Source: Elusimicrobium minutum Pei191 (GTDB lineage: Bacteria > Elusimicrobiota > Elusimicrobia > Elusimicrobiales > Elusimicrobiaceae). Taken from it: a stretch of 64,000 nt of DNA. Position numbers and translations under genes: made by a program. Positions 1 through 39,331 of the stretch are shown one piece after another (positions within the stretch are counted from its first letter, which is position 1; each line of letters opens with the position of its first letter). The stretch is taken from the NCBI RefSeq assembly GCF_000020145.1, contig NC_010644.1, positions 1,426,001 through 1,490,000 on the forward strand, in the 5' to 3' direction. The notes below the pieces were generated by a model that made no database searches, was not told the DNA's origin, and was given only the letters and a program-made list of their open reading frames with translations.

Positions 1-1361
1 GTTATGCCAAGTTCAAAAGTATGTTTTTCAAATCCGCCGTTACGTATGTTTGACGTGGTTTTATTAAACGAATAGTTAAAAGTAGGCGTAAAGCCTAAAA
101 TATTTATCTGCCTGTTAAGCAAACGCACGTCAATCCCGTAAGAATTTTCTATACGTTTTTTTATTTCATAACTAAAATCTTGAATCCAGCCTCTCTTTGT
201 TTTTGAGGATGAATAAAAAGGCTCCGCATACAAAGATATGCCCAAGGGCAGCTCGGTTCCTAAACCTACTCCGTATCTGTAAATGTCACGGTCAGTCCAT
301 CTGTTTTCGGTTCTTATAAAATTGGCCGAAGGCTTTAAAATAATATATGTTTTGGAGTTTATACCTATATAAAGCGAAGGCATTACTAAAACGCTGTGCC
401 CGTCAAAATGTTTATGTATGTCCTGCTCATACTCATTTTTCTTTAAAGCGCCGCTTAACCCAATTCCCAGACGGCGGGTAAGGTCATAACTGAAATCCGC
501 TATAGGGCCGTAGCTGTTTAAAAACCCTTTCCCGCCGTACCAAACACGCTCGGCCGAGGCGTATGCGCCCGCGCTTCCGCGCTTAAAATTATAAAGGGGG
601 CCTGTGGAAAACGAAAGGGAATATATATCAAATTCTTTACCCGCAAAATCGGAAATGCCGCCGCTTAAAGTGCTTTTTAAACGCAGGCTTCTGTTTAGCC
701 TTAAATAATTTTCTATACCCGCGTAGCCGCTAAGCCCTATGGAAGAACGCTTTTTTTCCAACTCTCTGCACATGGGGATAATCCAACCCCCGAAATCAAC
801 TTCTATACATTCAATTTGAGCGCCCGAAACATTGTTAATATTATTTGTAGGCGCAATGCCCAAATTCAAATAATAATCCCACCTTTTGCGGTAGCGTATT
901 TGGTAAAGAAAATAGCCTATTTTTTGTTTAACTTCCAAAGGTAAATCTCTTGAAGCCCACACCAGACGGAAATGATAATCCGCCTTTTCGTTGCGGCCTG
1001 TTTCAAAATATAAAAGGGCAAGTTCTAACCTTACGCGGGAAAGAGAAGGCTGGTTTCTGAGTATCCTTCTAAAAATCCACTCGGCTGTGGCAAAGTCTCT
1101 TTTTTGCATGCTTGCCATACCCAGCAAAAATTCAATCTGTGTTTTTTGTTCATTATTAAAAACTTTGGGAAACAACTCCAAAAGCAGGGTGACGGCCTCC
1201 TCCGTTTTCTTAGCGGAAACAAGTTCTTCGGCTTTCTCGATATTACGGTCCATAAGGTAAACGGGATCGTCAAACAAATATTGCGCGCGGGCCGTAGTAA
1301 GCAGAAAAAAACAAAAAAGCGCCGTAAAAAGGCGCTTTTTTGTTTTTTTGCCGGGAAACAT
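1..1361 (-). CDS. Slam-like (DUF560) outer-membrane beta-barrel protein, 3' end beyond window
   Basis: An open frame runs without a stop from ATG at 1361 to the window edge (453 codons). Residues 1-26 form a signal peptide: lysine-rich n-region, Leu/Phe core, ARA cleavage site. Residues 30-135 are helical and repeat-like (AEELV.., EAVTLLLELFP, ATAEWIFRRIL, ARxELALLYFE-like), as in TPR domains. From about residue 150 the sequence alternates in beta-strand fashion (YYLNLGIAPTNNINN, then many Gly/Tyr-rich strands) to a final visible THTFELGIT-type strand. TPR plus barrel, with the NNINN motif after the repeats, is the plan of Slam (surface lipoprotein assembly modulator), the type XI translocon. 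Length fits the family, so only a few residues are missing. It begins 19 nt after the stop of an MntP-like gene. Family call is by eye; another TPR-barrel protein is possible. Confidence 0.62.
   Translation of the reverse strand, partial: MFPGKKTKKRLFTALFCFFLLTTARAQYLFDDPVYLMDRNIEKAEELVSAKKTEEAVTLLLELFPKVFNNEQKTQIEFLLGMASMQKRDFATAEWIFRRILRNQPSLSRVRLELALLYFETGRNEKADYHFRLVWASRDLPLEVKQKIGYFLYQIRYRKRWDYYLNLGIAPTNNINNVSGAQIECIEVDFGGWIIPMCRELEKKRSSIGLSGYAGIENYLRLNRSLRLKSTLSGGISDFAGKEFDIYSLSFSTGPLYNFKRGSAGAYASAERVWYGGKGFLNSYGPIADFSYDLTRRLGIGLSGALKKNEYEQDIHKHFDGHSVLVMPSLYIGINSKTYIILKPSANFIRTENRWTDRDIYRYGVGLGTELPLGISLYAEPFYSSSKTKRGWIQDFSYEIKKRIENSYGIDVRLLNRQINILGFTPTFNYSFNKTTSNIRNGGFEKHTFELGI
1305..1349. 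terminator. Perfect 19-bp inverted repeat, terminator-like, inside signal-peptide codons
   Basis: Arms 1305-1323 and 1331-1349 are exact reverse complements with a 7-nt loop. Each strand has a GC core (GCGCC/GGCGC) followed by a T-run, so it reads as an intrinsic terminator both ways. On the minus strand it lies 32-76 nt after the stop of the MntP-like gene and covers codons 5-19 of the Slam-like gene. Confidence 0.7.
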
Positions 1362-35738: not shown

Positions 35739-36755
35739 TTACCTTACTATAACGTCTTCCAATTCGGCGCCGTGTGAAATAAGCGCAACTTTGGGGAAAG
35801 GATATACATCTTTCATCATATCCTCTATATTAAAAATGAAGTTTTTAGCTTCGTCGGTAAGGTCTTCAAACTTTTTAACATTATCATTGCCTTTAAACAT
35901 ATCAATGTGGGTAATGGCTATTTTATTACCGTTATTAATTGCGATAGCGCGTTTTGCGTAGTAAGGTTCAAAATCGCCTATTCTTCTTAACCTTTTGCTT
36001 ACGGAGCCTACTTCGCCGCCTTTTGTATGGTAAACTTCCAAATCTTCTTCTTCGGTAATTTCACCCTTTAAAGGACCGGGGCCGACACGGCTTACATAAG
36101 GTTTAAAAATAACGTAAACGTCTCTTACCGCTTTGGGGCCTAAACCCGCTTCGGCCAAAAACGTGCAGGCGGTAGTATCGCGTGAAGTAACAAAAGGGTA
36201 TTCCCCGTGAAGCAAAGAAAGTTTGATGCCTTGTGTTCCTTCAAGCAAAATATCCTCATTCTTACCAAGAGCCTTGTTAAGAAGTTCAGGTACTTCCCGT
36301 ATATACTCTTTAAGCAAAGGCTCGTCTTTGGCAAAGGTAATCTGGCGGCGTTCAATTCTGTCCCTGACAGCCTGCCCCAAACCCGTGCCGACGCTTCCTA
36401 TACTTTGCATAAAATGCGCATTTTCTTTTTCGGCCGAGGTCTGTGCGTCGTTAATTAAAACGGCAAAAGGGTCAACTATAATTCTGTCCCTAACGCCGGT
36501 AGCTTCAACTTCCGCCATAAACCATTCAAGTTTTGTATAAGCCCCCGGGCCTAAAACTAGTTTTGTTTTAGGGTTTAAAAAGCCCGAAGGTATGTTTTTT
36601 AAAGTGTATTTTTTACCGTCTTTGATAACAGTATGTCCCGCGTTCGGACCGCCGACGCGCACACAGTAACTGTAATTGCCTTTGTATGAAAGGTAGGCGG
36701 AAATTTTGCCCTTTCCTTCGTCTCCGGCTTGACCGCCGCTAACTATATCTATCAT
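35739..36755 (-). CDS. purA: Adenylosuccinate synthetase, short (archaeal-length) form
   Basis: Makes adenylosuccinate from IMP, aspartate and GTP. Motifs: GGQAGDEGKGKI (residues about 7-18) keeps the catalytic Asp, although the usual Trp before GD is Ala. VGGPNAGHTV (about 33-42) keeps the catalytic His. LLEGTQGIKLSL, TSRDTTAC and the C-terminal SVSKRLRRIG are present. At 338 residues it is about 90 shorter than E. coli PurA (about 430) and similar to short archaeal enzymes. The retained Asp argues against PurZ. It lies 12 nt after purB on the same strand. Confidence 0.9.
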   Translation of the reverse strand: MIDIVSGGQAGDEGKGKISAYLSYKGNYSYCVRVGGPNAGHTVIKDGKKYTLKNIPSGFLNPKTKLVLGPGAYTKLEWFMAEVEATGVRDRIIVDPFAVLINDAQTSAEKENAHFMQSIGSVGTGLGQAVRDRIERRQITFAKDEPLLKEYIREVPELLNKALGKNEDILLEGTQGIKLSLLHGEYPFVTSRDTTACTFLAEAGLGPKAVRDVYVIFKPYVSRVGPGPLKGEITEEEDLEVYHTKGGEVGSVSKRLRRIGDFEPYYAKRAIAINNGNKIAITHIDMFKGNDNVKKFEDLTDEAKNFIFNIEDMMKDVYPFPKVALISHGAELEDVIVR

Positions 36756-36767
36756 ATTAACCTCTTA

Positions 36768-38159
36768 TTATTTCAGCCCTTTGGCCAATTTTGCCGCTAT
36801 TCCGGTGTATTGCTCTAAAGAAAGCTTTTTTAGTTTGTCTTTTACTTCTTTGCTTACATCTAAATCCTCAATAAATCTACGTAAAACTTCATTATCAATC
36901 TTTTTGCCTCTGGTTAAAGCTTTAAGCTTTTCATACGGGTTTTGAATGCCACAGGCTCTAAGTATTGTTTGAACACCTTCGGCAAGAACTTCCGGGTGCT
37001 CATGCAGCGCCTGGGCACACTTTTGCGTATTTACGCTTATTTTGCCAAGGCCTTTAAGTATGGCTGAGTAAGCCACAACAGAGTAACCGAAAGCCACGGC
37101 GAAATTGCGGGAAACCGTGGAGTCTGACAAATCCCTCTGCAGCCTTGAAACAGGCAACTTTGAGGAAAAATAGCCGAAAAGCGCGTTGGCAAGCCCTATA
37201 TTTCCCTCGGCGTTTTCAAAATCTATCGGATTAACTTTTTGAGGCATGGTGGAAGACCCTACCTCCCCTTCGACCGGACGCTGCTTAATGTAATCGTCGC
37301 TTATATAACGCCACATATCCTGGCAAAAATCCAAAAGTATTGTATTGGCTCTTTTTACATTATCAAAAAGCTCCGCGTAAGTATCATGCGAATCAATTTG
37401 AGTGGAAACTTCATTTAAAAATATCTTTACGCCGCGGCCTTTGTTAAAGCCCGAAATAAATTTTTTGGCGAAAGAATGCCAGTTTACTTTATCAAACGCG
37501 GCAAAATGCGCGTTAAAGTTGCCCACGGCTCCGCCGAGTTTGCAAGATATCTGCTGTTTTTCAAGCTGTTTTATCTGCCTTCTTAATCTGTATTCAAAAA
37601 CTTTAAATTCTTTACCGAAAGTGGTAGGAACGGCCGCCTGCCCGTGCGTTCTTGCCAAAATAATCGTTGAGGCGTATTTTTTGGAAAGATCCGTCAATTC
37701 TTTATGTATTTTTTTAAGCTCTGGAAGCAAAACATTTTCAACCCCGTCACGAAGCATAAGCGCGTAAGAAATGCTGTTAATATCTTCCGAAGTTAAAGCA
37801 AAATGTATCCATTCCAAACGGTTTTTAAGGCTTGAAGCGCCGAGCCTTAATTTTAAAAAGTATTCTATGGCCTTAACGTCATGGTTGGTGGCCTTTATTT
37901 GGCGGTATCCCCTAAATTCAATATCTTTTATTGTAACAAGGTCCGCTTCGGAAAGGGGCAAAATGGAATTTAAAATTTTAACTTCACTTTCTTTAAGTTT
38001 GGGAAAGTTTTTTAAACCCAGGCCTGCTAACGCTTTAAAATATTCTATTTCAACATTAACTCTTTGTCCGCTTAGCGCGGCTTCCCCCATATAATGGGAG
38101 AGCGCGGAAAGTTTGCTCTTGTAACGCCCGTCTAAAGGGCTTATGTGTGATTTTGACAT
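36768..38159 (-). CDS. purB: Adenylosuccinate lyase
   Basis: A 463-residue fumarase/aspartase-superfamily enzyme. It resembles E. coli PurB: SPLDGRYKSK start, LTSEDINSISYALML and the mobile catalytic loop GSSTMPQKVNPIDFENAEGN (about residues 303-322). It acts twice in purine synthesis. ATG 38159 is preferred over TTG 38165: a TATAAT lies 10 nt upstream and there is no Shine-Dalgarno. It heads a purB-purA operon, the second enzyme making the substrate of the first. Confidence 0.95.
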   Translation of the reverse strand: MSKSHISPLDGRYKSKLSALSHYMGEAALSGQRVNVEIEYFKALAGLGLKNFPKLKESEVKILNSILPLSEADLVTIKDIEFRGYRQIKATNHDVKAIEYFLKLRLGASSLKNRLEWIHFALTSEDINSISYALMLRDGVENVLLPELKKIHKELTDLSKKYASTIILARTHGQAAVPTTFGKEFKVFEYRLRRQIKQLEKQQISCKLGGAVGNFNAHFAAFDKVNWHSFAKKFISGFNKGRGVKIFLNEVSTQIDSHDTYAELFDNVKRANTILLDFCQDMWRYISDDYIKQRPVEGEVGSSTMPQKVNPIDFENAEGNIGLANALFGYFSSKLPVSRLQRDLSDSTVSRNFAVAFGYSVVAYSAILKGLGKISVNTQKCAQALHEHPEVLAEGVQTILRACGIQNPYEKLKALTRGKKIDNEVLRRFIEDLDVSKEVKDKLKKLSLEQYTGIAAKLAKGLK

Positions 38160-38169
38160 AACCAAACCT

Positions 38170-38175: not shown

Positions 38176-38227
38176 CAAATTTTAATTTTTTTTGAAAGGC
38201 CGTAAACCCTTTTATTAGTCCAAAAAA

Positions 38228-38253
38228 TAAGGGAGGTTGTTTATTCCTCCCTT
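38228..38253 (-). terminator. Terminator after the TbpB-like lipoprotein gene
   Basis: GGGAGG/CCTCCC stem with a 9-nt loop; the minus strand continues TTATTTTTT. Confidence 0.78.
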
Positions 38254-38278: not shown

Positions 38279-39331
38279 CTATTTTTTAACTCCGAAAGCC
38301 CCGCTTACCACAGGCCTGAACCCGGCGCCGTTATACCCTTGGAAATTTATGTTAAAAATACCCAAAGCCTCGTCAGGGATTTTCCCGTCCTCACCGTAAA
38401 AATTGCCTTGAAAGCTTGATGTATAACTTCCGGTAGATTCATACTTTGAATCAATGCCTGAAGGCGTTGACGTAACTTTCAAACTTCCGCCCGAATTGTT
38501 AAAAGAACCGTCCGCCAAATTCAGATTTTGCGAAGTATTGTCCGTTTCAAAACTGTACCATTTGTGACCGTCAACATTTAAATCCATAGAGGCGCTTACT
38601 TTTTGGTCTTTGAAATTAGCGCTTAAAGTGATGCCGCCGGTTAAGTCAGCGTAACCTGCCGCCGTTTCCGGGTTAACTCCGTTATCTTTCATTAAAGTAA
38701 CGCTGCCTAAAACATTACCTTTAAAGCTGTGATTGGAATCGTTATTGTTAAGGGCTGTTAAATCAGGTTTTTTGGTTGAGTCGGCAATTACAAAAGCGTC
38801 TGTAAAAATATAATTTCTGTCATAATGTGTGCCAACGGCAGAGTTATTAATATTAGCGGTTACAACCTCCCTCCAATAACCGAAATCACCGTGCTTAAGT
38901 CCCATTTTAGCGCCGCCTACGGCAAGTTTATTTTTGGCGGTATAAACAACACTTCCGCCCGTTGAAATAGCGGATGTGCCGCTGAAATCGGAAGTAAAAA
39001 CAAAAGCCGTTAAAGGATAGCTTGATAAATTGTCTTTTTGAAAAATAAGAGGAGTGCTCATTGTTATAAAGGCAACATCGCCGTTTGCATCCAGCGTTAC
39101 GGTCGGGGCCAGTTCTTTGGCGTAAACCGCTATTCCGCCTTTACCGTCAGTTGTTGTAGTGCTGTCCAAAGACATAATTTGCGTACCGTTAAGCGTAATA
39201 GTGTCACCGGCGGGCAGCGCGTTTAAAACAGAAAAAATTTGTGCTGAAACCGGTTCGCTTTTACTGTCGCACGCCGTTAAAACAAAAGCCCCGGAAAGTA
39301 AAATAAATAAAATTTTTGTAATTTTTGACAT
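38279..39331 (-). CDS. Lipoprotein with TbpB/HphA-like C-terminal barrel, candidate Slam cargo
   Basis: A 350-residue lipoprotein: signal peptide with lipobox LTAC, Cys21. An N-terminal handle-like region (about 50-190) includes LKHGDFGYW (about 146-154). A C-terminal eight-strand barrel region (about 215-350) follows, with the family-typical end FQGNFYG...EALGIFNI...SGAFGVKK. These features match the transferrin-binding-protein-like group (TbpBBD, PF01298) that includes TbpB, HpuA and HphA, whose surface display depends on Slam translocons. A Slam-like gene lies at 1-1361. Residue +2 is Asp. GGAGG precedes the ATG. It stands alone with its own terminator. Ligand unknown. Confidence 0.68.
   Translation of the reverse strand: MSKITKILFILLSGAFVLTACDSKSEPVSAQIFSVLNALPAGDTITLNGTQIMSLDSTTTTDGKGGIAVYAKELAPTVTLDANGDVAFITMSTPLIFQKDNLSSYPLTAFVFTSDFSGTSAISTGGSVVYTAKNKLAVGGAKMGLKHGDFGYWREVVTANINNSAVGTHYDRNYIFTDAFVIADSTKKPDLTALNNNDSNHSFKGNVLGSVTLMKDNGVNPETAAGYADLTGGITLSANFKDQKVSASMDLNVDGHKWYSFETDNTSQNLNLADGSFNNSGGSLKVTSTPSGIDSKYESTGSYTSSFQGNFYGEDGKIPDEALGIFNINFQGYNGAGFRPVVSGAFGVKK

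Follow-up and report, generated by a model that had tools for sequence, protein, structure and literature searches.

Surface lipoprotein assembly modifiers (Slams) and the type XI secretion system (T11SS) have been described for Proteobacteria (PMC8406197, PMC12282271), and a survey of Slams was restricted to proteobacterial clades (PMC5449769). Slam1 by itself translocates unfolded TbpB into liposomes, with the help of the holdase Skp (PMC9090332). Here, we describe a Slam gene and its candidate cargo in a stretch of 64,000 nucleotides (the window, positions 1426001-1490000) of the single-contig genome (1,643,562 bp) of Elusimicrobium minutum Pei191. An earlier note on this DNA had proposed a Slam homologue with a lipoprotein cargo candidate in an Elusimicrobiota-like genome, and the phylum fits the nearest named relatives, which are Elusimicrobium and Elusimicrobia metagenome-assembled genomes. 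We consider it very probable that the frame at 3-1361 encodes an outer-membrane translocon of the Slam family, with the lipoprotein encoded at 38279-39331 as its passenger, on the grounds of family assignment, fold predictions, homology of the cargo, co-occurrence and the presence of LolA and OmpH/Skp-like genes. Like Slam1 and Slam2 of Neisseria meningitidis and the Slams of Moraxella and Haemophilus (PF24575 plus PF04575), the E. minutum protein combines a signal peptide, a tetratricopeptide repeat (TPR) domain and a 14-strand barrel, and its probable partner is likewise a lipoprotein, with a TbpB-like predicted fold. Unlike them, it has a non-proteobacterial host, a non-adjacent partner and no detected TonB plug domain in its genome, and it lies far from the Neisseria row in our tree.

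The translocon gene (1..1361, minus strand) has 453 of its 457 codons in the window. The frame spans 1361 down to 3 and is open solely owing to the window edge, the stop codon being located 13 bases past the left side; reading of the whole genome gave a complete protein of 457 aa ending in GITNRF. The signal peptide, TPR-like helices and barrel region that had been read from the unterminated 453-codon frame are all present. The predicted Sec signal peptide, MFPGKKTKKRLFTALFCFFLLTTARA, covers residues 1-26 (1284..1361), with the cut placed between TTARA and Q by reading of the sequence and a helix at residues 5-31 in the model. It is followed by a periplasmic TPR domain (residues 33-158; 888..1265), in which PF24575 (TPR_Slam) matches residues 51-131, and by the outer-membrane barrel (residues 161-452; 6..881), in which PF04575 (SlipAM/DUF560, surface lipoprotein assembly modifier) matches residues 161-440. 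Both matches exceed the curated cut-offs (PF04575: E 3.1e-21, 76.6 bits, cut-off 22; PF24575: E 1.8e-9, 38.4 bits, cut-off 35.2), and, with a similarity well above anything expected by chance, the gene truly belongs to the Slam (type XI) family. PF04575 matches no other gene of the E. minutum genome, and none of the 14 control genomes contained a match.

A confident AlphaFold2 model built from 24 relatives (predicted local distance difference test, pLDDT, 85.5; predicted template modelling score 0.64) contains a signal helix, TPR-type helices as far as residue 158 and then 14 long strands (assigned by DSSP), the last ending at residue 452, with an additional hairpin at 183-200; a 14-strand barrel with TPRs is what the earlier note had named as support for a Slam. 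In a PDB fold search with this model the best matches were the TPR-barrels BcsC and PelB, with low template modelling scores (TM-scores), the 14-strand barrel OmpG reached a TM-score of 0.65 by target, and no solved Slam was among the matches. A PDB sequence search likewise found neither a solved Slam nor a relative of the cargo.

The frame at 38279..39331 on the minus strand encodes, as had been stated, a lipoprotein. It is a 350-aa protein with a predicted signal peptide and lipobox (39269..39331; LTA before Cys21, Asp at +2, by reading of the sequence) and, according to alignments and the model, a C-terminal TbpB-like barrel domain (about residues 126-350; 38279..38956) with the shared SDFG/GDFG-type motif and a terminal AFGVKK. 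The proposal that it is a cargo is supported by its TbpB-like predicted fold and by its homology to Slam-adjacent genes of relatives (best E 3e-9 in a small set of 18 sequences). A leave-one-out profile, trained solely on Slam-adjacent genes of related genomes with the window cargo excluded, recovered the latter with an E-value of 5e-18 as the sole credible match in the E. minutum genome, and also recovered orthologues in two further genus members, both outside the training set (E 1.2e-15 and 2.8e-15). In the nearer of these members the orthologue lies in an identical cargo-purB-purA order. In the PDB fold search with the cargo model, the top 21 matches were all TbpB, from Neisseria, Actinobacillus and Haemophilus (best E 1.7e-4, probability 1.00). 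TbpB is the classic Slam substrate. Both genes are under purifying selection between genus members (ratio of nonsynonymous to synonymous substitution rates about 0.15 for Slam and about 0.24 for the cargo), with an amino-acid identity of 80% for Slam and 68% for the cargo; the faster divergence of the cargo is what would be expected for a surface protein.

Both genes are retained in each of the three genus members examined. Our sample comprised 295 Elusimicrobiota genomes. In 12 of the 14 of these that carry the Slam lineage, the gene immediately upstream of slam, in several cases separated from it by just a few bases, encodes a TbpB-like barrel, and these Slam-adjacent cargos have the C-terminal barrel signature SDFG ... 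E..G ... FGAKK. One of them (L039), homologous to the window cargo, passes PF01298 (29.1 bits, cut-off 26), as does the cargo beside a more distant Slam (L047; 43.3 bits). The cargo profile was positive in 14 of the 295 genomes, the very set in which the cargo-linked lineage is represented by an intact Slam. By this profile, no cargo was found in two relatives with a truncated Slam of about 150 residues, as would be expected if both genes decay together. These Slam remnants (L046:4203-4661 and L048:7220-7672) are pseudogenes or assembly cuts. A weak PF01298 match in genome G133 was dropped, as it sits in an M23-peptidase-like frame. The earlier proposal of a Slam/cargo pair is supported, with the qualifications that its genes are unlinked here and that many such pairs, not this one alone, are found in the phylum.

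Several observations weigh against the assignment of this cargo to this translocon. In E. minutum, 37 kb separate the two genes and no cargo adjoins slam, and they are likewise non-adjacent in the two other genus members; adjacency is frequent in the family but is no requirement for membership. The 14 out of 14 co-occurrence is in good part circular, as Slam-adjacent genes were the training set of the profile, and its untrained part (2 of 2 versus 0 of 281, p 2.5e-5) comes from a single genus. Overall, the model of the cargo is of moderate confidence (pLDDT 65.7): its barrel is good (blocks mostly at 70-94 beyond residue 190), its N-terminal third is poor and unreliable, and it reaches only low TM-scores against TbpB (0.28-0.33 by query, no more than 0.47 by target), indicating a partial likeness. 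The protein has no match to PF01298 (TbpB_B_D) or NF041636 at curated cut-offs, and the former is why it is not filed as a PF01298 member. Finally, an Asp follows the lipid-bearing Cys at +2, which by the Escherichia coli lipoprotein rule, a rule that is not general, marks retention in the inner membrane.

By analogy with work on Neisseria and Moraxella, the cargo would leave the cytoplasm by Sec export and be lipidated at Cys21, after which LolA together with a Skp-like holdase would release it and carry it over the periplasm. The TPR domain of Slam would capture the unfolded barrel domain of the cargo, which would thread through the 14-strand Slam barrel and, once outside, fold into a TbpB-like protein held at the cell surface by its lipid anchor. 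A LolA gene and an OmpH/Skp-like gene are present in E. minutum, so that supporting parts of this route exist. As for its function, no TonB plug domain (PF07715) was detected in the E. minutum genome by a search that was positive in E. coli, Caulobacter and Bacteroides, which makes a TbpB-style iron-receptor role, or piracy of transferrin or haemoglobin, unlikely. Most likely, the cargo does not serve a TonB-dependent iron receptor but instead recognises a ligand of the host or the gut, or protects the cell as a shield, and it may act in gut attachment or shielding.

The lack of linkage and the Asp at +2 would also suit a Slam-family translocon whose main passenger is another, unrecognised protein, the window lipoprotein staying periplasmic or arriving at the surface by another route, and non-TbpB candidates such as DUF1194 proteins do co-occur with some proteobacterial T11SS clusters (PMC12282271). 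We consider this unlikely, given that the genome has a single cargo-type gene, that homologues of the cargo adjoin Slam in related genomes and that the pair has been jointly retained in the genus. A second cargo candidate (C1:350222, E 0.011) was dropped because this weak match belongs to an MlaEF-like transporter region. That the cargo might instead be a co-receptor of the TbpB/HpuA type, supplying a TonB-dependent receptor with iron or haem, is suggested by its TbpB-like predicted fold and by the frequency of TonB-linked cargo in proteobacterial cluster 1 (PMC8406197; PMC12282271), but is very unlikely in a genome without a detectable TonB plug domain. The window cargo also differs from TbpB and TbpB-like solute binding proteins (PF01298, NF041636), with which it has a predicted barrel lobe in common, in its length of 350 aa, its single lobe, its scores under the curated cut-offs and its lack of a TonB partner.

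It is highly unlikely that the translocon is another kind of TPR-barrel exporter, either a polysaccharide porin (BcsC, PelB, PgaA, AlgE) or a FecR/CHASE2-linked barrel of the type found in non-gut Elusimicrobiota. The PDB fold search with the Slam model ranked BcsC and PelB highest, with no solved Slam listed, yet the TM-score to BcsC is just 0.37, no polysaccharide synthase genes adjoin slam, and a better sequence match to a porin family, which the earlier note had named as evidence against a Slam, was not found: the BcsC model (E 0.013, 13.2 bits versus a cut-off of 858) and that of the poly-N-acetylglucosamine porin PgaA (E 0.029, 12.5 bits versus 1043) match the generic TPR region only. 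FecR-linked barrels of other Elusimicrobiota pass PF04575 too, but the one tested against TPR_Slam falls under the cut-off (18.3 versus 35.2 bits) that the E. minutum gene exceeds, and in the tree the latter groups with cargo-linked Slams. Altogether, 38 of the 295 genomes are positive for PF04575, and many of these positives, those in non-gut Elusimicrobiota, are FecR/CHASE2/CsgG-linked barrels (three loci tested, the rest assigned by eye), so that PF04575 alone overcounts Slams in this phylum. These TPR-barrels, which lie beside FecR-domain genes (with CHASE2 or CsgG too) at L020, L022, L024, L025, L026 and L029, apparently belong to a different system.

Close counterparts of the E. minutum translocon with its TbpB-like passenger are also found outside the phylum. 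In a tree of 43 Slam proteins, the Elusimicrobiota Slams of the cargo-linked lineage and those of small-genome, uncultured Alphaproteobacteria (L091, L094, L096 and L098-L102; L097 is titled only 'bacterium') form one clade (support 100/99), with the E. minutum Slam placed in a nine-member Elusimicrobiota group (93/96). The alphaproteobacterial Slams have about 30% identity to that of E. minutum and, unlike it, mostly lie next to their partners, which are cargo lipoproteins with the same SDFG...AFGAK signature as the Elusimicrobiota cargos. Three Slams from two Elusimicrobiota families (L033-L035) are nested among the Alphaproteobacteria (100/100), indicating gene transfer, and topology tests rejected both a single Elusimicrobiota clade (p 6e-89) and a single alphaproteobacterial clade (p 7e-5). 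Thus, gut Elusimicrobiota and small-genome gut Alphaproteobacteria appear to share this Slam family by gene transfer, and Elusimicrobiota are reported to have acquired other genes from gut Alphaproteobacteria (PMC11257099). Outside the phylum, the cargo profile matched seven of the eight alphaproteobacterial-type genomes tested, the failure being a sphingomonad (L104), and it also matched, in a Novosphingobium plasmid record, a protein annotated as 'transferrin-binding protein-like solute binding protein' beside Slam, which itself matches the NF041636 Slam-dependent lipoprotein model under the cut-off (E 4e-11). Serine recombinase genes or fragments occur near Slam/cargo pairs at L033:3770-5383, L034:12892-14511 and L101:6493-7143. 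Two of the transferred Slam loci have such recombinases nearby, and it is possible that they were the vehicles of transfer.

Sister lineages within the Elusimicrobiota differ in how the cargo begins. The Slam-adjacent cargos of L036-L041, L044 and L081 have no lipobox; their shared N-terminus, MT[TA]II.ILAALGIGGG, is Cys-less and leads into glycine-rich repeats, and genome G040 has seven cargo-profile matches. The haemophilins HrpC and HphA are T11SS cargos moved without a lipid anchor, as seems to be so in these sister lineages, whose common Cys-less N-terminus and glycine-rich linkers set them apart from the haemophilins; the E. minutum cargo, in contrast to HrpC and HphA, has a lipobox. We see an about even chance that gut Elusimicrobiota and small-genome Alphaproteobacteria hold a distinct, exchanged branch of the type XI system, free of TonB receptors and displaying fast-varying gut surface proteins, in which one Elusimicrobiota sub-branch has replaced the lipid anchor by a Cys-less, glycine-rich N-terminus and has up to seven cargo paralogues per genome.

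No report of type XI secretion in Elusimicrobiota was found in the literature searched, which excluded most subscription journals, and the E. minutum Slam may have been among the proteins of UniProt-based studies (PMC8406197, for example) without being discussed there. A Slam with a TbpB-like cargo outside the Proteobacteria widens the type XI system to another phylum and would represent a Slam/cargo system moving between gut phyla. It also provides a setting without TonB receptors in which roles of these surface proteins other than iron capture can be studied.

Contamination was ruled out as the source of the genes by the one-contig genome, by the conserved gene order in other genus members and by a G+C content at third codon positions that is like that of the neighbours (0.42 for Slam and 0.40 for the cargo versus a window mean of 0.385, standard deviation 0.041). 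Two mntP-like genes, slam, hpt and ftsH follow one another in E. minutum, an order common to two other genus members. The former, at 1381-1956 and 2008-2565 upstream of slam, encode tandem, diverged MntP-like membrane proteins that are kept in the genus. Between slam and hpt, a frame of 763 aa whose N-terminus resembles that of type IV pilins is inserted at L045:1915-4206 (L087:5246-7537 is the same gene). A hairpin followed by a T-run (38221..38253, minus strand, z -2.4) lies 3' of the cargo stop codon and before purB, which suggests that the cargo gene has its own intrinsic terminator ahead of purB. In both E. minutum and the relative G182 the cargo lies beside purB/purA (window 35739-38165) and slam beside hpt (L002:7378-7911), and these purine genes are probably chance housekeeping neighbours.
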